The notes under the pieces are model-generated. The model saw nothing but the letters and a program-made list of their open reading frames with translations. It did not search any database and was not told the DNA's origin. From Saprospirales bacterium GYS_P2D (GTDB taxonomy: Bacteria > Bacteroidota > Bacteroidia > Chitinophagales > Saprospiraceae), in contig WUUP01000001.1 of assembly GCA_009833045.1 (NCBI GenBank), positions 737,586 to 801,585 on the forward strand: DNA of 64,000 nucleotides. The letters run 5' to 3'. Numbering within the stretch: the first letter of the stretch is position 1; each line of letters begins with the position of its first letter. Below, one piece after another: positions 43,609 through 52,113 of the stretch. A program made the translations under genes and the position numbers.

Positions 43609-44637
43609 CTAAGACTTAGCTCGATAAGCTATATAAGCTCGGAGATCAGCCAGCTGCTGCTCAGACATTTTCTCTTTGGTATAGTTAGGCATGTATGACT
43701 TCTTACCATACTTAGAGTAAGTACCATACCTGACTACCTGATAGATGGAGTGGTTACTCCAGGTATCCGCCTTAGCATCGAGATGTGAGAAGCTCATTTT
43801 ATTATCATCCAGATGGAGAAATGAATAACGCTTTTGATAGTGACAGTGGAGGCAGCTATTATCATAGATCAACTTCCCATTGTCCTTGTCACCTGTATAT
43901 CCTGTACCGATCTTTCGGTCAGCTGGTGGCTCTAAGAATGTAGCCTCTGCAGCTTGCGGGTATTTTCGCTTGAGCAGCCGGACTGCCTCATCACGGATCA
44001 CATCATTCTCCACAGCAGCAGCTATAGAGCTGATCTCCAGTTCACTGAGCGTCAGATCACTGATCTTCAGATCAATGGTCCAGAGATAAGCCAATATTGC
44101 TTCGAGCTCCCAATCTTTTAGCTTGCGTCCCTGAGCGCACTCTTGAGCACAGAGCTGTATTGCCTCTCGGATATCATTTCTCGCTGGTTCGACCAGATCA
44201 CCATATTTTTTATCGTAGTCCCCATTGTAGTATGTCTCCCGATTGACAGCGCCATAGAGCGTCGTCCCTTGTAGGTATGGGAGACCCTGCTGTACTACAT
44301 ATTCGAGACGTGCCTGTGGAGTTACGTTAGACAGATCGGGATCTTCTCGCTCGAGATTATGACATGAGGTACAGACGAAATGCTTACTCTGTCTCCTTGA
44401 TTTATTGAGACCATCTCTTTTGGAAAATCCATTTTTCACAATATCCTCGCCGATCTGTGCTAAGCCTTCTTGTGTTGACCGAGGTTTTTTATCTCCGATA
44501 TCTTCACCAAGCTGCTCTAAGATCATGGCCACGGAGTCATCTCCCGATATACTGATCTCAGTAGGAGCTCTCTCCTCTATGAAGGCGAATGACAAACAGG
44601 TAATAGCGATGACTGATATGACTATATACTTCCACAT
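43609..44637 (-). CDS. dihaem c-type cytochrome
   Basis: 342 residues with a Sec signal peptide (MWKYIVISVIAITCLSFAFI). Two haem-binding motifs are present: CTSCH near 93-97 and CLHCH near 262-266, each in a typical cytochrome c domain (the second with MPNYTKEKMSEQQLADLRAYIAY containing the axial Met). Periplasmic electron carrier or oxidase subunit; part of the layout resembles thiosulfate dehydrogenase-like proteins, but I would not assign a substrate. It starts 7 bp after the DUF5777 gene, and the two are probably one transcript and one function. Confidence 0.9.
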   Translation of the reverse strand: MWKYIVISVIAITCLSFAFIEERAPTEISISGDDSVAMILEQLGEDIGDKKPRSTQEGLAQIGEDIVKNGFSKRDGLNKSRRQSKHFVCTSCHNLEREDPDLSNVTPQARLEYVVQQGLPYLQGTTLYGAVNRETYYNGDYDKKYGDLVEPARNDIREAIQLCAQECAQGRKLKDWELEAILAYLWTIDLKISDLTLSELEISSIAAAVENDVIRDEAVRLLKRKYPQAAEATFLEPPADRKIGTGYTGDKDNGKLIYDNSCLHCHYQKRYSFLHLDDNKMSFSHLDAKADTWSNHSIYQVVRYGTYSKYGKKSYMPNYTKEKMSEQQLADLRAYIAYRAKS

Positions 44638-44644
44638 AGTGATC

Positions 44645-45523
44645 CTATAGACTGAATAATCTTGATATAGTAAATCCTAATCTGAACTCTCCCTCTCCCC
44701 AGCTACTGGATGTGTATGGGATAAAGTCCGTCTCAGAGATACCTCGAGAGTTAGTCAGATTGACCTGAAATACATGGCCTCCTCCCGTGTCAAACTCAAA
44801 GCCAACTGCTAACGGAATCGTATAATCAACTCCTGTATCTCGCTCATCAGAGAGCATGGGTAAGACGGCATCAAATATGATACCCATAGACTTAGTCGCC
44901 TGTATGCGCATACCTGCATTGAGCGCTGCTATATCATTTTTATCTCCGATCTCTACAACATTGCGAGCAGTCCATGAGCCCCCCAGTTGCAGTGAAAATC
45001 GATCTGAAAACTTTCGGGCTATCTGCAGACCTAAGTGATATGTGAGTCGATGAGAACTCTTATCAAATGACGTGATCTGTCCCTCCAGAGAACTTTTCTG
45101 CATCGTACTGTAAGAGGCCAATCCTACCGCCGCCATACTGAATGTGGCACTACTATTCTCTCGCTGCTCCATGATCTTGTACTTAAATAAGCCATTGAGA
45201 TTTTGCTTGAGCGGACCAGAGCCCTTAGTACGTGTGATACCGACCATCGTGCGATCACTCAGCCCATACTCGAGACCTATCGCTATATCGCTGGCGCTCT
45301 CCAGTCCATAGAAGGTAGTCCATCCACCGCTCTCTCCGGCCAAATCTCCAAAACGATGCACTACCCTGAAATCTAACTTATGAGCCGGAAGCGTCTCTAC
45401 GGAGTGCATATTAATCACTCGAGTATGTCTGAATGTCTGTACTACTTTATTGTCGTCTACTCTATCTTGGCCGAACACTGCTGAAGCGATCAAGAGTCCA
45501 ATCAGTATGTAAAAATGTCGCAT
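44645..45523 (-). CDS. DUF5777 family outer-membrane beta-barrel protein
   Basis: 292 residues with a signal peptide (MRHFYILIGLLIASAVFGQ). The start of the mature part, FRHTRVINMHSVETLPAHKL, then VHRFGDLAGE and SDIAIGLEYGLSDRTMVGITR, is the recognisable signature of DUF5777. The rest alternates aromatic/hydrophobic strands ending in FRLGFTISRLFSL with a C-terminal hydrophobic residue, as in outer-membrane barrels. In Bacteroidota these proteins often accompany c-type cytochromes or YceI-like proteins, as here, so it may be linked to extracytoplasmic electron transfer (inference). First gene of the pair. Confidence 0.9.
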   Translation of the reverse strand: MRHFYILIGLLIASAVFGQDRVDDNKVVQTFRHTRVINMHSVETLPAHKLDFRVVHRFGDLAGESGGWTTFYGLESASDIAIGLEYGLSDRTMVGITRTKGSGPLKQNLNGLFKYKIMEQRENSSATFSMAAVGLASYSTMQKSSLEGQITSFDKSSHRLTYHLGLQIARKFSDRFSLQLGGSWTARNVVEIGDKNDIAALNAGMRIQATKSMGIIFDAVLPMLSDERDTGVDYTIPLAVGFEFDTGGGHVFQVNLTNSRGISETDFIPYTSSSWGEGEFRLGFTISRLFSL

Positions 45524-46218: not shown

Positions 46219-48786
46219 TTATCGAGTGATGATTACCATTTTGTTTAGTTGGATAGTGCCTACCTTGATCGAGAGTAGGTAGTGACCTGTCTCGAGATCA
46301 CTCACATCCAGTAGCATTTCTTCTTTTCCTTTGTATAGATACTGCTGATCATATGCCTTAATCTCACGCCCACTTACATCGTAGATGCTCGCCACACCGA
46401 TCGCATTTTCTTCGAGCGTCATTCCTACCGCCATTATATCCTTGGCTGGATTAGGGTAGACATCCGCTACGACGCTGTTATTTCGCTCTACATTGATCGC
46501 TATGATATCGCTGTATGCATAGCCACCGTCATAGTCGAGCTGCTTGAGTCGATAGTAGTAGGTAGTGCTTGTCGCAATATCCTTGTCCAGATACTGATAT
46601 CTGCTGATGAGAGCTGTTGTACCATTGCCCTCAACCTCGCCTATTTTCACAAAATCTCCAGCTCCTACTGCTCTCTCGATTTCAAACTTGTCGTTATTGA
46701 TTTCTAAAGCTGTCGCCCAAGTAAGTTCATTGATATTCAGCGCAGCATTCCACTCTCCATCGAATGAGATCAACTCTATAGGTACCACACCAAATCTGAG
46801 ACCTGCGTTGACACCCTGGACCTCCTCACTTGGCATCAAAAAGAATACTTCTGTAGATGTAGTGTTGGGATCTATATCATTGTCCACGAGCTCATCGTCA
46901 CCTATCCCCAGCGATACAAAGCTGTCTCCATTATCTCCTGAGGCCAGCGATCTCACTTGATAAGAGCCCATAGGTACATCTTCAAAGCAATAAGCTCCAT
47001 TTTCGTCAGTACTGGCGAGCTGGATGACTAGATTGCCATTATCTATACTGATGAGCTGTAGTTGACTATTTGCGATAAGCGAGTCAAGTCCAGCATCATA
47101 TACATTATTTTCTGTCTCGGCATCTTCTTTCCATACGATACCACATATACGACCTCCGAGATAGAGACCATAGTCGACATTTTCTATTTTTTGACCTGGC
47201 TGTAGCGTATAGTTCGCTGTTGTATTCGGACCATTCTCATTATTAAGATCACTATCTATGTCATCATCCGCTCTACGATCTGCAGGACTGACCACATAGG
47301 TATCAGGGATGATCACTTCAGTGAAATAAGTAGTCGGTGCGATCCCGTCAAAGCAGTAATAACCTACTTCACCCGTTTCCGGATTAGTCGATGTGACTGT
47401 AGTCGCAACGAGCATGTTGTCCGTATCATAGAGATTGATCACTACATCATTGAGTCCAGGCTCTCCTTCATCTTGGACACCATTACCATTCAGATCTTCC
47501 CAAGCGACTCCTCCGAGTCCTGCTGAGGTAAAGAATCCAGCATCGATATCATTGATTACTTGGCCAGGTGATACATTGATGGTATTTGACAGGCCATTTG
47601 GATTAATATCACTATCGAGTGTCCCATTGTCACCCTGTCCTCTTGGAGATATAGTATAGCCATTTGGACCGATGAATTCTACGATATATCCACTCTGATA
47701 CACATTGAAAATATAGTAGCCCGGCTCTCCTGTGTCCGGATTATTCGTTGTCGTAGTAATACAAGATGGGAAGTCACTAAAGTCAGGTACTCCATCAAAG
47801 TTAAAGTCCGCATAGAGATTGACAGTGACACCATTGATACCTGGCTCATCAGGATCTTGGATACCGTCACCATTGAGGTCTTCCCATACATAGTCACCGA
47901 TTATGGCTCTTTCTTCGCCAGTGATGATCTGGGTCTGACGCCCAACACACCCACTCGCTAAGGCCACCTCTACTGTATAGGTAGCTGGTTCATTAGCATC
48001 TACGATGATAAAATCCTGTGTAGATCCTGTACTCCATAGGTAACTATCATACTGCTCTCCCACTACTAATATCGCCTGCTGAGTAATATCACAACCCTGT
48101 AAATCAAAGAAAATAGTAGGATTGAGCGCTTGACAAACACCCACGATATAGCCCTCTCCGATATCATAACATGTCCCTGATACATCCATGAGATTGGCAT
48201 CGACTTCGAGACCTTCTATTCCTGCTGCAGTCTCATAATTGACCGCAAAGGCTACATAAAGACCCATCTCCAGCTCTCCAAAATCCGGATTATCTTGTAC
48301 CACGAGTATATTTCCATCACTATCGGTGAGTATATATTGGGTAGTAAAGTCAGGGTCATCATTACCACCTGTAGCAGCTAATACGACCTCCTCTCCCAGA
48401 CAATAATTACACGGATCGAGCTCCTCACAGACGGTGATAGACATCGGGTCTGAGATATCAATACAGTCTCCCGATACTACATGTATATTACTACCTACTG
48501 TGAGACCATCTACTGTAGTATCATTTTTAAAATTGACACCATAGATCATATAAAAGCCCTGTATATCCACCTCAAACTGGGTCCGATCAGATATCTGAAG
48601 AATCTCTCCAGACTGATCAGTGAGGATATACTGAGTCGTATATAGATCAGTTGTATTTTGTCCGTCCGCATTGAATGTCACGATACCTGTCCTATAGTCA
48701 CATGACTGTGCTGTGATATTGGATATAGATCCAATAGTCAACAGCAATACTAAAGAAGCAAGATATCTTATCGCTGACAGCTGCAT
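46219..48786 (-). CDS. large secreted SdrD-B-repeat protein with T9SS type A sorting domain
   Basis: 855 residues from the ATG at 48786, where a signal peptide begins (MQLSAIRYLASLVLLLTIGS); an in-frame ATG at 48882 adds 32 residues without signal character. The mature part has two related N-terminal repeats (TQYILTDQSGEILQI and TQYILTDSDGNILVV, each ending in a Cys-containing VSGxCxDI motif), then three SdrD-B/Cna-B-like domains starting near residues 295, 422 and 542 (GDYVWEDLNGDGIQDPDEPG, GGVAWEDLNGNGVQDEGEPG) with aspartate-rich calcium-binding loops, a VPIELISFDGEW-type beta-domain from about 664, and the sorting domain from about 774 (VYPNPAKDIMAVGM). Cell-surface attached or released adhesin-like protein, function unknown. 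Confidence 0.9.
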   Translation of the reverse strand: MQLSAIRYLASLVLLLTIGSISNITAQSCDYRTGIVTFNADGQNTTDLYTTQYILTDQSGEILQISDRTQFEVDIQGFYMIYGVNFKNDTTVDGLTVGSNIHVVSGDCIDISDPMSITVCEELDPCNYCLGEEVVLAATGGNDDPDFTTQYILTDSDGNILVVQDNPDFGELEMGLYVAFAVNYETAAGIEGLEVDANLMDVSGTCYDIGEGYIVGVCQALNPTIFFDLQGCDITQQAILVVGEQYDSYLWSTGSTQDFIIVDANEPATYTVEVALASGCVGRQTQIITGEERAIIGDYVWEDLNGDGIQDPDEPGINGVTVNLYADFNFDGVPDFSDFPSCITTTTNNPDTGEPGYYIFNVYQSGYIVEFIGPNGYTISPRGQGDNGTLDSDINPNGLSNTINVSPGQVINDIDAGFFTSAGLGGVAWEDLNGNGVQDEGEPGLNDVVINLYDTDNMLVATTVTSTNPETGEVGYYCFDGIAPTTYFTEVIIPDTYVVSPADRRADDDIDSDLNNENGPNTTANYTLQPGQKIENVDYGLYLGGRICGIVWKEDAETENNVYDAGLDSLIANSQLQLISIDNGNLVIQLASTDENGAYCFEDVPMGSYQVRSLASGDNGDSFVSLGIGDDELVDNDIDPNTTSTEVFFLMPSEEVQGVNAGLRFGVVPIELISFDGEWNAALNINELTWATALEINNDKFEIERAVGAGDFVKIGEVEGNGTTALISRYQYLDKDIATSTTYYYRLKQLDYDGGYAYSDIIAINVERNNSVVADVYPNPAKDIMAVGMTLEENAIGVASIYDVSGREIKAYDQQYLYKGKEEMLLDVSDLETGHYLLSIKVGTIQLNKMVIITR

Positions 48787-48928
48787 ATCACTTGATTTAT
48801 AGCCGAAGAGCGTCAGATCACAAATAGATCCAGATCGATTTGATGTTAGATTTTGCACTTTGATTTTTTCGCTCTTCATCATTAGTAGATTTCTTAGATT
48901 TTGATAATAGATGATCAGATCCTACTGA

Positions 48929-50428
48929 TTAGTTTCCACTAAGAGTCGGAGCTTGAGCGGCACAGTTTTCTTGACATATAGTGACCTGACTACAGTCTGG
49001 ATCGAGACAGTCCACGAGTCCGTCACCATCATTGTCCACACCATCGCTACACATAGTCGTACCTGTCTCTACCATATTCTCTCCACATGATGTGTCAAAA
49101 CAAGCAGAGTTGCCACTGGATGGTGAGAGATCATTGAATGTTGATGGCACGAGATTTCTGACATCAGAGACTGTCATCCATTCTTGGATAGCGAGAATCC
49201 CCGTATTGTAAGAATCAGTGAGGCCATTGCGTCCCCATGCAGTCTCAAAACATACATCACCATCCATGATCGCCTCATCTGTCATCGTGAAGCATATCTC
49301 AGCAGTCGTAGTATATGAGCCGACATTGATCACTTGATCTGTACCTCCTGCTTGACTCACTAAGTCGATAGAGAAATCTATAAATCCTAAGTCATCTTCA
49401 AAGGCTAAGTCTCCTACACCTGCTGCATTTTGGTTTTCGATAGGTGTGCCTCCCATGATACTCACAGGCTGATAGTCTGCACCAAGTCTACTCACTACTG
49501 ATGTGAATGTACCTACTCCACTATTGTAGAAGAGTCGATAATCCTGATTACCCAGCATGAATGACATATCTCCTGCACCTCTCAGCTGTATATTATAACA
49601 AGCCATATTGGACCCACAGTCCACTGATGATAGAGCGAGATTGATATCATATGAGTTTGATTCAGGTGCACATGGCATGACCATCGCACAGTCATCATCC
49701 GCACAGTCTACGAGACCATCGAGGTCATTATCCTCTCCATCGCTACATGCTGTTGGGGTATTTTCATTAGTTTCTCCTTCACAATAGAAAGTGAGGCACG
49801 CTTGCTCATTATCATTTTCGTCGAGATCATCATACACCATACCCATAGCTTCCGCAGTGGAGTTAGCAGCGAGCCACTGTGATATTTCTACGAAAGCTGT
49901 CGCATATCCATCTGTACGACCCATACGGGCCCATACGAGATTGAGACACTCTGATGCATCATCGATCACGTCCCCAGTCACTTGAAAACACAAGCTCGAC
50001 GTCGTGATCCACTCTCCCGATCCAGGTAGATCAACACCACCACTGGACAGGTTCATCAGATCGATAGAATAATTGAGAAAGCTCAATGTACTCGCAAATG
50101 GTAAGTCCCCGGGAAATCCGGAAGCATCAACATTTTGCTGATCGGATGTCAGTAGCGGAGCAGAATACTGATCGGCATTGAGACGAGACTCAGCAGAGCC
50201 ACTGATATAAGAGGCTACAGAGCCATCATAAAAGATGCGGTAGTTCTGGCCTGCCAGATTCCAAGTTTCATTGGTAGCAGCTTTGACCTGCACGAGATAG
50301 CACGCTTGACCTGACTCACAGTCAAAGTCTTCGAGCATGAATCGAATATCGAATCTTTCTTGAGCAAACAGGCATGTACCTACCATCAGTAAGCACGCCA
50401 CGAGGAGTGAGTTGTACGTTTTCATCAT
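48929..50428 (-). CDS. secreted protein with two QNYR domains and two Asp-rich metal-binding motifs
   Basis: 499 residues, signal peptide MMKTYNSLLVACLLMVGTCL. Two copies of an unnamed domain at about 25-190 and 255-420: each has an opening strand with Cys, then GQNYRIFYD or NQDYRLFYN, GDLPFASTLSFLNYSIDL or GDLAFEDDLGFIDFSIDL, a xxCF strand, and WARMGRTDGYATA or WGRNGLTDSYNTG. Each copy is followed by a CSDGxDNDxDGLVDCxDxDC motif (near 226-248 and 462-484) as in MopE-type metal-binding repeats. It ends shortly after the second motif (CAAQAPTLSGN) and shows no T9SS sorting domain. Function unknown; see the cluster finding. Confidence 0.85.
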   Translation of the reverse strand: MMKTYNSLLVACLLMVGTCLFAQERFDIRFMLEDFDCESGQACYLVQVKAATNETWNLAGQNYRIFYDGSVASYISGSAESRLNADQYSAPLLTSDQQNVDASGFPGDLPFASTLSFLNYSIDLMNLSSGGVDLPGSGEWITTSSLCFQVTGDVIDDASECLNLVWARMGRTDGYATAFVEISQWLAANSTAEAMGMVYDDLDENDNEQACLTFYCEGETNENTPTACSDGEDNDLDGLVDCADDDCAMVMPCAPESNSYDINLALSSVDCGSNMACYNIQLRGAGDMSFMLGNQDYRLFYNSGVGTFTSVVSRLGADYQPVSIMGGTPIENQNAAGVGDLAFEDDLGFIDFSIDLVSQAGGTDQVINVGSYTTTAEICFTMTDEAIMDGDVCFETAWGRNGLTDSYNTGILAIQEWMTVSDVRNLVPSTFNDLSPSSGNSACFDTSCGENMVETGTTMCSDGVDNDGDGLVDCLDPDCSQVTICQENCAAQAPTLSGN

Positions 50429-50506
50429 CTACTTATTAGTTATTAAGGTCCTCAGACCTAATATCTCAAGGTAAAGGTAAACATATTATTGAAAAATATA
50501 ATATAT

Positions 50507-50525
50507 AGTAGAAAAAATTTCTACT
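50507..50525. promoter_or_regulatory. 8-bp inverted repeat upstream of the two-domain QNYR gene
   Basis: AGTAGAAA-AAA-TTTCTACT, a perfect dyad about 80 bp before the start at 50428 and downstream of the 50575-50608 terminator. Possible operator. Confidence 0.35.
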
Positions 50526-50574
50526 CCCTCCTTTTTCTTAACCTTAATAAGCGGATGCGAACAGTACAGACGTA

Positions 50575-50608
50575 AATAAAAAAAGCAGAGATATCCCTAT
50601 ACCTCTGC
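50575..50608 (-). terminator. intrinsic terminator of the 268-residue QNYR gene
   Basis: On the minus strand GCAGAGGTAT-AGGG-ATATCTCTGC (one G-U pair) is followed by TTTTTTTATTT, 45 bp after the stop at 50653. Confidence 0.85.
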
Positions 50609-50652
50609 CTTTGAATGAGTAATATAAATGAGAATGAATCTTACCTAATTCA

Positions 50653-51459
50653 TTAATTATTATCTGTTTTGATAATGCTCTTAGTGAATATCTCTCCACT
50701 ATCTGCGATGAGCTCAACAGTATAGCGACCTGCAGGCCATCCTGATAGGTCATAGTCTGATACGGACTTACCATCTACACTATCATATACCACCTCTCTA
50801 CCGATGACATCTTTGATCAGTATGTCAACAGTGGATTCCTGGCGATCGATAGCTATCTGTACTCTATCGACTACAGGATTAGGAAATACCTCCATAGATA
50901 TATCCTCTGATATGGTATTGTGAGCCTGCGTATAGTCGATCATGAGCTCTGGGTCGAGTACTGCTTGCTCTTCTTCATCTACCCACTTAGATAGAGTCAC
51001 CTGTGCACTGGCATAGTACTCTGTTCGCTCATTTGCCCAGATCACATCAAATCCTTTTTGTGTTGTAGGCATGAAGCATGCTTTTCCGACTCGGGTCCAT
51101 TCTCCTGATTTATCCACATTGATCGTCTGATCAGTATTAGCTCTCGCATCTACAGACAGAGACAAGAATCCTACGTCTCCATGTATAGAACTGATCATAT
51201 CAGTTTTGCTATACGCCTCTTGATCTAATGAAAGAGTAGTTTTTTCTTTAATCACCTCTGCCTTACTGGCGTCATAAAACAAGCGATAGTTTTGACCGGC
51301 CAGCTTGATATCCTCATTGTACGGAGATCGGAGCTCGAGATCAAAGCACTGCTCTGACTGAGAGGTGTTGATATGATTGAGTCTGAGCTCAACTTTGCTC
51401 TGCTGTGCTTGGGCTACTACGCACATCAAGCTCAATAAAAGTATAATGTAATTCTTCAT
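50653..51459 (-). CDS. secreted single-QNYR-domain protein with T9SS type A sorting domain
   Basis: 268 residues, signal peptide MKNYIILLLSLMCVVAQAQ. One QNYR domain at about 22-165 (ELRLNHINTSQSEQCFDLEL, LAGQNYRLFYDASKAEVI, GDVGFLSLSVDA, GKACFMPTT, VIWANERTEYYASAQ). The C-terminal 75 residues are a T9SS sorting domain: MEVFPNPVVDRVQIAIDRQ, VIGREVVYDSVDG, DLSGWPAGRYTVEL. It is thus exported to the cell surface. It is the only one of the three QNYR genes in this cluster with a visible sorting domain. 51 bp downstream of the 200-residue paralogue and probably co-transcribed. Confidence 0.88.
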   Translation of the reverse strand: MKNYIILLLSLMCVVAQAQQSKVELRLNHINTSQSEQCFDLELRSPYNEDIKLAGQNYRLFYDASKAEVIKEKTTLSLDQEAYSKTDMISSIHGDVGFLSLSVDARANTDQTINVDKSGEWTRVGKACFMPTTQKGFDVIWANERTEYYASAQVTLSKWVDEEEQAVLDPELMIDYTQAHNTISEDISMEVFPNPVVDRVQIAIDRQESTVDILIKDVIGREVVYDSVDGKSVSDYDLSGWPAGRYTVELIADSGEIFTKSIIKTDNN

Positions 51460-51510
51460 GACTATATATTACAATTGTTTATAATATATCAATCACTATG
51501 CCAATGTTGA

Positions 51511-52113
51511 TTACTGGGTAAGGTAATCGGTATATTCAGCGACTGAAGTGCTTATTAGTTTGCTCTCTCCATTTATCGAGGATAGCTCTATGTATGCTCG
51601 GCCATATGCCGCTGTTGCTTCTTCTCTGGCTAATATGATAGACATCGGAGCAGTCTCATCTGACACGGCAAAACACATCTCTGCGATGTTGACAAAATCA
51701 GGTGATAAAGCAACTCCTGCTTTCTCCAGATTATTCTGAACAATAGAGAAATTAATAAAGCCCAGATTATTCTCAAATGCTAAATCCCCTGTACCAGAAG
51801 CATCGACACCTGCCACATGCTGTACCAGACGGAGTTGATACTGATCAGACGGAAGTGCCTGCTTCATGCTACTCTCATCCAGTTTCAGATTATCGGCATT
51901 ATAAAACAGGCGATAATTTTGACTGGATAGACTTAAAGCTCCTCCAGTAGGATTAGCTATCTGTAGTTGGACACACTTCTGCGCATCACTGCTACTGGCA
52001 TCTGCTACACGGATGTGCACACCATCCTGAGCATAAGACACGCTGCCCATCATGAGGATAGCTCCACTGAGTATTTCTTGAATTAGGCTTTTGATTGTTT
52101 TCAATTTCATCAT
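51511..52113 (-). CDS. short secreted QNYR-domain protein without sorting domain
   Basis: 200 residues, signal peptide to about residue 28 (LSGAILMMGSVSYAQ). The mature protein is nearly one bare QNYR domain: VQLQIANPTGGALSLSSQNYRLFYN, GDLAFENNLGFINFSI, AEMCFAVSD, AREEATAAYGRAYIEL. It lacks both metal-binding repeats and a T9SS domain, so it should remain periplasmic or use another route. Start of the cluster's left-going transcript; the 240 bp upstream (52114-52353) are AT-rich and shared with the divergent lipoprotein gene. Confidence 0.85.
   Translation of the reverse strand: MMKLKTIKSLIQEILSGAILMMGSVSYAQDGVHIRVADASSSDAQKCVQLQIANPTGGALSLSSQNYRLFYNADNLKLDESSMKQALPSDQYQLRLVQHVAGVDASGTGDLAFENNLGFINFSIVQNNLEKAGVALSPDFVNIAEMCFAVSDETAPMSIILAREEATAAYGRAYIELSSINGESKLISTSVAEYTDYLTQ

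Follow-up and report, generated by a model that had tools for sequence, protein, structure and literature searches.

The described systems closest to the locus analyzed here are donor-strand complemented pili, the type A cargo of T9SS and the cohesins. Donor-strand complementation is known from chaperone-usher pili. It also operates in the type V pili (Mfa/Fim) of Bacteroidales, where a short terminal peptide completes the beta-sandwich of a partner, as the end of one protein of our locus would by analogy. T9SS type A cargo carries a sorting domain (PF18962/TIGR04183). Cohesins (PF00963; types I and II, e.g., 1TYJ, 4UYQ and 5LXV) adopt a nine-stranded jelly-roll beta-sandwich and bind dockerin in a calcium-dependent manner at their 8-3-6-5 sheet, an interface described in PMC5429695.

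We analyzed a window, by which we mean the whole stretch of 64,000 nucleotides. Three adjacent ORFs on its minus strand, at 48929-52113, encode four copies of a domain referred to here as QNYR, and the three differing architectures described in the sequence-only reading were borne out. W200 (51511..52113, 200 aa) combines a signal peptide, assigned by eye as in the other proteins of the locus, with one bare QNYR domain (51514-52035) of predicted cohesin fold. It gave no Pfam match at E ≤ 1 and no T9SS tail was found; a similar small gene occurs in the same gene order in the relatives L060-L065. W268 (50653..51459, 268 aa) carries a signal peptide, one QNYR domain (50890-51405) and a T9SS sorting domain (about 50671-50889, residues 191-263; PF18962, 3.1e-09). 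W499 (48929..50428, 499 aa) has a signal peptide and two QNYR domains, a (49781..50362, residues 23-216) and b (49088..49657, residues 258-447), each followed by an acidic double-disulfide repeat (49670..49747, C228-C253, and 48974..49051, C460-C485). These repeats, previously read as MopE-like Asp/Cys motifs, match NF033662 in two stretches (E 8.4e-19), the better of which, residues 454-485, covers the second repeat. No T9SS signal was recognised in W499 by the Pfam and NCBIfam profiles that match W268 and W887. Its extreme C-terminus is the candidate donor peptide CAAQAPTLSGN (48932..48964, C489-N499), a putative strand A.

Only 46 bases separate the stop of W499 from the start of its SdrD-B neighbour W887 (46219..48882, likewise on the minus strand), which comprises a signal peptide, two FN3-like repeats, SdrD_B repeats (1.8e-57) and a T9SS tail (about 46231-46461; PF18962, 1.3e-10). 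W887 measures 887 aa when counted from the first ATG; another in-frame ATG further on would give 855 aa and opens a cleaner signal peptide, so that both lengths are defensible. The first repeat of the mature protein (48424..48711, residues 58-153, three Cys) lacks the donor segment and is the candidate acceptor domain. The second repeat, of the same family (48130..48423, four Cys), has no donor segment ahead of it either.

The four QNYR copies are homologous, with a resemblance beyond chance at the sequence level. They align over about 165-195 residues at 22-33% identity in all pairs, with BLASTP E-values of 3.5e-34 (W499a-W499b), 1.5e-20 (W200-W499a) and about 1e-18 (W268-W499a), and the invariant columns of the alignment include C19, L34, Q37, Y39, R40, F42, Y43, F93, S97, C123, F124 and Y151. 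An earlier estimate of about 150 residues for the domain proved too short, the length being nearer 170-190 residues, but the domain was rightly left unnamed, since neither Pfam nor NCBIfam holds a family for it. The own genome contains seven further QNYR matches outside the four window copies. The shared Cys proposed for the domain hold for window-type copies, which contain one to three Cys pairs, but not for six single-domain copies scattered elsewhere in the own genome, in which the pair is missing together. Across 95 copies, the co-occurrence of Cys43 and Cys147 is perfect (both in 71, neither in 24, one alone in 0). As anticipated, QNYR occurs in many architectures and often in clusters; it was detected in 17 of 100 genomes. 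Multi-domain relatives include proteins of 904-914 aa with three QNYR copies and one 1970-aa ORF that joins two QNYR copies to Dockerin_1.

To predict the fold, AlphaFold2 was run on W499 domain a with 90 natural rows and returned a confident model (pLDDT 97.3, pTM 0.92). The best 20 Foldseek matches listed (E 1.6e-6 to 5.3e-4) all belong to cohesins, cohesin-like modules or components of cellulosomes. Of the 50 VIA matches listed, rows 1-48 (Z 12.7 to 9.8) consist of entries for cohesins, scaffoldins or cellulosomes, followed by a GH84 interaction module in row 49 (Z 9.4) and an unrelated entry in row 50 (Z 8.5). The best VIA match, 1TYJ, covers 144 residues at Z 12.7 and an rmsd of 2.7. Sequence identity among the structural matches listed is 4-16%. 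The predicted QNYR fold is a nine-stranded jelly-roll beta-sandwich like that of cohesins across the whole domain, and the earlier guess of a cohesin-like sandwich was thus right as far as the modelled fold goes. We therefore describe QNYR as a divergent module of predicted cohesin-type fold.

Profile comparison may point in the same direction. Using hhalign against 15 Pfam-recognised Saprospiraceae cohesins, 83 columns were aligned at E 1.9e-4 with a probability of only 48. Both Cys fall in the same columns, and the QNYR motif strand aligns with the GxQFSxNYDP strand of these cohesins. PF00963 did not match W499, W268 or W200 at E ≤ 1, for which reason QNYR is filed as cohesin-fold and not as a PF00963 member; one distant relative (L045) shows a sub-threshold PF00963 match (E 0.015). 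PDB sequence searches with 9-row and 90-row profiles returned nothing meaningful and no cohesin. The proviso of the sequence-only reading, that the domain might fall within a known, characterised family, came half true: the fold is known, the sequence family is absent from the libraries searched. Like cohesins, QNYR proteins have tandem copies, free and T9SS-tailed versions and, in one ORF, a dockerin. Unlike cohesins, they lack a Pfam match, use T9SS anchoring, bear one to three Cys pairs in window-type copies and display a near-constant QNYR motif, a conservation to which the scan of named genomes itself contributed in part, as it required that motif. The idea of a first cohesin in Saprospiraceae was dropped, as 59 of 100 genomes have PF00963 matches above cut-off.

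A cohesin fold raises the reading that QNYR domains bind dockerins of the own genome and form part of an ordinary Saprospiraceae cohesin-dockerin network missed by Pfam. This reading, compatible with the assembly favoured below, is possible but somewhat doubtful. The own genome holds 20 Dockerin_1 and seven Cohesin matches, of which 18 and six, respectively, lie above the Pfam cut-off, and the relative's ORF with two QNYR domains and a dockerin fits as well. Against it, none of the 20 Dockerin_1 matches falls in the window. That recognised dockerins are much more widespread (71 of 100 genomes, own included) than QNYR (17 of 100) counts against the assembly favoured below. Asp-rich double repeats beside QNYR genes at five loci were considered as dockerins, a candidate unsupported by Pfam or profile comparison: PF00404 gave no match at E ≤ 0.1 in the proteins of four of the five loci (L067, L069, L070 and L085), and hhalign of the five-row alignment of these tails against dockerin profiles yielded a probability of 2.7.

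A different link emerges between W499 and W887. The last residues of W499, CAAQAPTLSGN followed by the stop, align with CNAQAPVLTGE inside the fused protein L061, and mature W887 opens with a domain missing the very segment that closes W499. In three relatives (L061-L063) the equivalents of W499 and W887 form one continuous protein, so that the SdrD-B neighbour, tentatively added to the cluster before, does belong to the unit. An acceptor lacking a strand that is borne by another chain is thus seen at the level of sequence, by comparing split with fused or unsplit versions. A Saprospiraceae CxADAGTL...C repeat, for which no Pfam name was found, is unsplit in L104, L105 and L112 and has the same first segment, second Cys and core; in the window and other split pairs, by contrast, the first segment sits on another protein. 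The link, formerly ascribed to a calcium-binding partner, most simply appears to be a domain split between two proteins. From this split, evident in sequence and synteny, we infer strand pairing: the resemblance of the W499 end to the missing strand suggests that both secreted proteins join outside the cytoplasm.

AlphaFold2 modelled the fused L061 junction with middling confidence (pLDDT 82.4; 74 and 81 in the donor-segment blocks) and shows the donor VLT as a short strand. All 50 PDB alignments listed begin within or just ahead of the donor segment, with Z no higher than 8.0 and no family prominent among the matches listed; given the middling model and these scores, FN3-like denotes a class and not an identification. 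All eight window-type upstream proteins have an odd number of Cys after residue 30. Six complete partners count 13, 13, 14, 14, 55 and 14 Cys; with parity thus mixed, the Cys counts provide no proof on the partner side. The second repeat of W887 presumably folds although it has no donor segment, which may therefore be dispensable. Together with the quality of the junction model and the mixed parity, this repeat favours a rival in which an old gene fission left W499 and W887 independent, each half folding alone, with the Cys tail of W499 serving as a general tether, stability or sorting tag. We consider this unlikely in view of the recurrence and the trees described next.

Split pairs were surveyed in genomes of the same family, at 30 loci returned by a partner-domain search and 40 fetched regions, which represent part of the matches. 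Among 28 cases with a signal peptide, four domains retain their own segment (L104, L105, L112 and L212) and served as controls. For 17 of the remaining 24 signal-peptide-adjacent domains without their own strict motif, the upstream protein ends in the strict donor motif, which was defined after the first cases had been seen; looser counts are given alongside. Four further upstream endings match less strictly (L123, L204 and L206 on visual inspection, L203 under a relaxed motif), and three were set aside as non-split: L202 and L220, where no signal peptide adjoins the domain, and L223, which has its own variant segment. None of three controls has an upstream protein ending in the motif (the locus of L112 contains no ORF upstream of the domain). 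That the motif adjoins partners without the segment and not these three that retain it argues against a simple fission. In L204 an acidic repeat separates the signal peptide from the domain, and in the strict case L189/L216 about 50 residues do so.

Of 19 ORFs with a strict-motif ending, 18 lie upstream of a partner, and the motif occurs in one of 585 other ORFs, a figure that is not a genome-wide background because the presence of the partner domain governed the choice of loci, and the 603 ORFs, read from stop to stop, include many that are not genes. In L234 a motif-bearing ORF has no recognisable partner after it. The 17 distinct strict upstream proteins, many of them mutually related, fall into clusters of nine, five and three without BLASTP similarity between clusters at 1e-2, and into five clusters once looser cases are included. 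By sequence, the split thus recurs across no fewer than three upstream families unrelated to one another, and a break at the same place in each of them again speaks against the fission reading. Of nine partners scanned, seven matched a T9SS tail, six above cut-off.

In the tree of W499 domains, fused proteins are nested within split ones (supports 99/98, 94/91 and 88/86), from which we take split to be older than fused, so that the window's pair does not trace back to a single recent fission in its lineage. In a smaller partner-domain tree the fused proteins form one side of a branch, with a partly weak inner order.

Two further rivals fare worse. If QNYR domains were glycan-binding modules and the proteins adhesins, their secretion, the frequent tandem arrangement and the carbohydrate-binding entries in the fold neighbourhood (cellulose-binding and CBM3 entries at Foldseek ranks 22, 25 and 26) would be accommodated; these entries rank behind the cohesins, which outrank other folds in both the Foldseek and VIA lists, and recognised cohesins align with QNYR in the Cys pair and the strand-3 motif, making this reading improbable. 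Stop-codon readthrough or a frameshift yielding one W499-W887 chain, suggested by the short spacer and the fused relatives, is practically ruled out, as W887 is equipped with a start and a signal peptide of its own, as are the other partners displayed, and the window spacer contains additional stop codons.

The explanation we favour, and hold to be moderately probable, is a two-level surface assembly in which W499 is attached to W887 by the split domain. QNYR would be a divergent cohesin-type module showing a protein-binding sheet. W268 would hold such a module on the surface through its own T9SS signal, W200 would be a free module, and W499 a two-module adaptor without sorting signal. W268 and W887 resemble T9SS type A cargo in carrying a sorting domain; unlike in such cargo, no such domain is seen in W499 and W200, which would need a carrier or another route. 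The anchor of W499 would be W887, a T9SS-borne SdrD-B stalk. The last eleven residues of W499 would provide strand A, with its Cys, of an FN3-like domain whose other strands open mature W887. Both chains would pass the inner membrane via Sec, after which the W499 tail would complete the W887 domain, an intermolecular disulfide would probably lock the two, and the pair would exit jointly using the T9SS signal of W887. Building on the computed homology, fold prediction, gene order, recurring split and nested fusion, we infer strand insertion, disulfide, joint export and dockerin binding. Unlike in pili, the donor would lie at the C-terminus and be strand A of an FN3-like domain that is divided between adjacent genes and fused in relatives, and W499 and W887 would apparently form one pair and not a polymer.

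More tentatively, and short of probable, the split FN3-like domain may be a standard plug in Saprospiraceae, with the W499-W887 pair as one example among three or more unrelated families. Secreted proteins devoid of a T9SS signal would terminate in strand A with its Cys, and the next gene downstream would encode a secreted partner, usually T9SS-tailed, that lacks the strand. The chains would join in the periplasm, and unrelated cohesin-like, Calx-beta and other modules would be carried by T9SS and presented on one common type of anchor. Among the titles and beginnings of abstracts listed in literature searches, none names a QNYR-type cohesin or a partner linked to T9SS cargo through a split domain.

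If the proposed assembly is true, T9SS would move signal-less proteins through a built-in two-part joint, and T9SS cargo lists based on sorting domains would be incomplete for this large environmental family. The joint would offer a plain rule for reading partner proteins off sequence and a small, perhaps covalently locked pair of a type that lends itself to display. The family of QNYR domains would contribute a cohesin-type module, missed by the profile libraries searched, in bacteria rich in recognised dockerins.

The window's QNYR-domain genes lie on the minus strand as the sequence-only reading had placed them: W200 (51511-52113), W268 (50653-51459) and W499 (48929-50428), named by the amino acid length of their products. 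That they encode four copies of one domain was borne out by alignment and by BLASTP, in which comparisons involving W499a, the first W499 copy, gave E-values of about 1e-18 to 3e-34, and the QNYR domain is real. W499 and W200 showed no Pfam match, even at E<=1; W268 carries a C-terminal sorting domain (T9SS tail) in Pfam, its remaining matches falling below cut-off. NCBIfam recognized two acidic double-disulfide repeats in W499. The next gene downstream of W499, in the same direction and after a 46-base gap, encodes the SdrD-B protein W887 (46219-48882, minus strand; SdrD_B and T9SS tail in Pfam). All signal-peptide calls rest on visual inspection or a crude hydrophobicity criterion. The cluster is followed by genes for a DUF5777 outer-membrane barrel and a cytochrome c-like protein with two CxxCH motifs (43609-45523, minus strand); by eye, a similar-looking pair follows a 501-aa gene and its downstream partner at loci L059, L064 and L065.

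A fold model of the QNYR domain, computed from an alignment of 90 natural domains, reached a mean pLDDT of 97.3 and a pTM of 0.92. The best 20 Foldseek matches in the PDB were cohesins, cohesin-like modules or cellulosome components. When the 1000 best Foldseek chains were re-examined with VIA-align, rows 1-48 were cohesin, scaffoldin or cellulosome entries (Z 12.7 to 9.8), followed by a GH84 interaction module (row 49, Z 9.4) and an unrelated entry (row 50, Z 8.5). The predicted fold thus agrees with the cohesin-like beta-sandwich suspected earlier, and the domain, which had been called unnamed, has no name in the libraries searched (Pfam and NCBIfam). Sequence alone gives no cohesin, as PF00963 was unmatched in Pfam and PDB sequence searches returned none. 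Comparison with a profile of 15 Saprospiraceae cohesins recognized by Pfam aligned 83 columns (E 1.9e-4, probability 48), which is suggestive and not decisive. This alignment places QNYRxFYD on the cohesin strand GxQFSxNYDP, and both QNYR cysteines coincide with the two cysteines of these cohesins. Of 95 domains, 71 contain Cys43 together with Cys147 (W499 numbering), 24 lack the two and none has a single one, and Cys37 and Cys161 are concordant in 90 of 95, counts that allow two columns of slack and are inflated by relatedness; on a simple reading, the co-occurring pairs would be disulfides. The dockerin face of described cohesins is assigned to sheet 8-3-6-5 (PMC5429695); as we read the profile comparison, the QNYR motif would lie on strand 3 of this sheet.

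Genome searches with a 9-row profile found the domain in 17 members of a 100-genome set (own plus relatives) and in 3 of 296 genomes across the phylum, own included. The own genome holds 11 matches, four inside the window. Six of the seven others are single-domain proteins of 271-327 aa, scattered over the genome, with a T9SS-like tail by eye; the seventh, a weaker match, is a 593-aa protein with acidic repeats (by eye) and a CHU_C sorting domain at its end. Two single-domain genes on different contigs, C21:569822 (L014) and C23:101243 (L013), are 98.5% identical, as the result either of recent duplication or of the assembly. The scan of named genomes yielded 33 loci, labeled Saprospiraceae (22), Bacteroidetes (7), Chitinophagales (3) and Flavilitoribacter nigricans (1). 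Clustering recurs in six of them (L060-L065), in the order bare gene, domain with T9SS tail (~275 aa), domain with T9SS tail (~300 aa), two-domain gene; L064 deviates in having one more copy ahead of the others and a third gene of reduced length, and the window shows this order minus the third gene. In another lineage, L074 (622-4623) encodes three QNYR domains, SdrD_B repeats and a T9SS tail in a single 1334-aa chain.

Recognized cohesins and dockerins also occur. Of 20 Dockerin_1 matches in the own genome, 18 exceed the cut-off, as do 6 of its 7 Cohesin matches; among the 100 genomes, 71 carry dockerins and 59 carry cohesins above cut-off. In one relative, a 1970-aa ORF combines two QNYR domains with a Dockerin_1 match near a 2288-aa ORF with three QNYR domains, an arrangement that looks scaffoldin-like. 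At L067, L069, L070, L085 and L244, two Asp-rich repeats form the C-terminus of the protein encoded immediately ahead of a QNYR gene. These tails appear dockerin-like by eye; four were tested without gaining Pfam support, and a profile comparison was negative. A separate type of ending recurs at the C-termini of L067-L070, L072 and L047: approximately C[LIV]P[VILF], a brief hydrophobic run, and K/R at the stop or close to it. Its carriers are two-domain QNYR proteins and a distant relative that belongs to another order. Both two-domain proteins with this ending that were scanned contain a GEVED domain, and the ending is possibly a second joint or signal.

The more surprising part, beyond the sequence-only reading, is a domain split between W499 and W887. 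The suspicion that the SdrD-B neighbor belongs to the cluster proved right: at L061-L063 a single chain of 1334-1335 aa unites the two-domain and SdrD-B proteins. Aligned with these fused chains, W499 ends in CAAQAPTLSGN and mature W887 starts with QSCDYRTG, the corresponding junction of L061 reading CNAQAPVLTGETGVAGTCDYVNG. Unsplit Saprospiraceae repeats have a similar first segment before the same core (CEATAGTLV...C, CTADAGTLS...C). The fused and unsplit versions therefore place the break within one domain, after its first segment. A like ending and downstream start occur at seven further two-gene loci (L059, L060, L064-L066, L071 and L075), with a Calx-beta middle replacing the acidic repeats in L066, L071 and L075; the L065 partner was taken from reading frames and recovered again when signal-peptide-adjacent cases were sorted. 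A tree built on the first W499 domain groups the fused proteins in one clade (99/98) nested among split ones (94/91, 88/86), so fusion looks derived from the split state. Literature searches, with thin coverage of subscription journals, returned no description of such a joint.

If the joint were general, unrelated proteins upstream of partner genes, which encode secreted proteins whose first domain lacks the donor segment, should end in this Cys motif. Four loci were read in which a domain lacking the segment immediately follows a signal peptide; in each of them the upstream gene ends in the motif (CDADAGTWN, CSANAGTLSY, CNADAGNW and CNAKAPKLSKL, each before the stop), and a profile search found QNYR only in the last of these proteins. 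A profile of 12 partner domains matched at least 190 of 298 family genomes, with at most 17 candidates scored per genome, and only 6 of 296 phylum genomes, own included. The survey covered loci L059-L131 and L174-L243, part of all matches, and the strict motif was defined as C.A.A[PGA].[LIWVMF] within the final 22 residues of the upstream protein. Among 28 distinct signal-peptide-adjacent cases, four keep their own segment, and the motif was found upstream in none of the three of these having an upstream ORF. The other 24 comprise 17 with the strict motif (including L189/L216, with ~50 residues between signal peptide and domain), one with a relaxed form (L203), three with a variant by eye (L123, L204, L206) and three judged not to be split cases (L202, L220, L223). 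Of 603 distinct stop-to-stop ORFs (>=150 aa, loci from L009 on), 19 end in the strict motif, 18 of them directly upstream of a partner (exception, L234). The 17 strict upstream proteins form three clusters of 9, 5 and 3, between which BLASTP found no similarity at 1e-5 or 1e-2; adding the four looser cases gives five clusters. Nine partners were scanned for a T9SS tail, which was above cut-off in six, below it in L075 and absent in L127 (Pfam) and in L123, truncated by the contig end.

The window's own genome likely holds a second such pair at L123 (contig C4); its upstream protein, Calx-beta-type by eye, ends in CTVQAPMVIIGNN before the stop, and its partner has at least 1908 aa and an HYR match. 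The partners at L127 (2377-3372) and L206 (2596-3657, minus strand) themselves end in a Cys motif (CCDTTVKGFLR and CPCDFPSGFIR, respectively, before the stop), as if a chain of joints continued to a third protein.

A model of the fused junction, computed from 16 natural rows, had a pLDDT of 82.4 overall and of 74 and 81 in the ten-residue blocks holding the donor segment, where VLT forms a short strand. All 50 structural alignments listed begin at model residue 34-38, in or just before this segment; the listed matches are mostly FN3- and Ig-like domains, and as Z is at most 8.0 they indicate the fold class only. All eight window-type upstream proteins have an odd number of cysteines after residue 30 (21 or 9), made odd by the final one, and in their partners the first domain contains three. 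From the model and these cysteine counts, we infer that the upstream tail would insert into the partner domain to form its strand A, where a disulfide may lock it, and that the upstream protein, which lacks a sorting domain, would exit together with its T9SS-tailed partner. A surface assembly is a plausible reading of the cluster as a whole.
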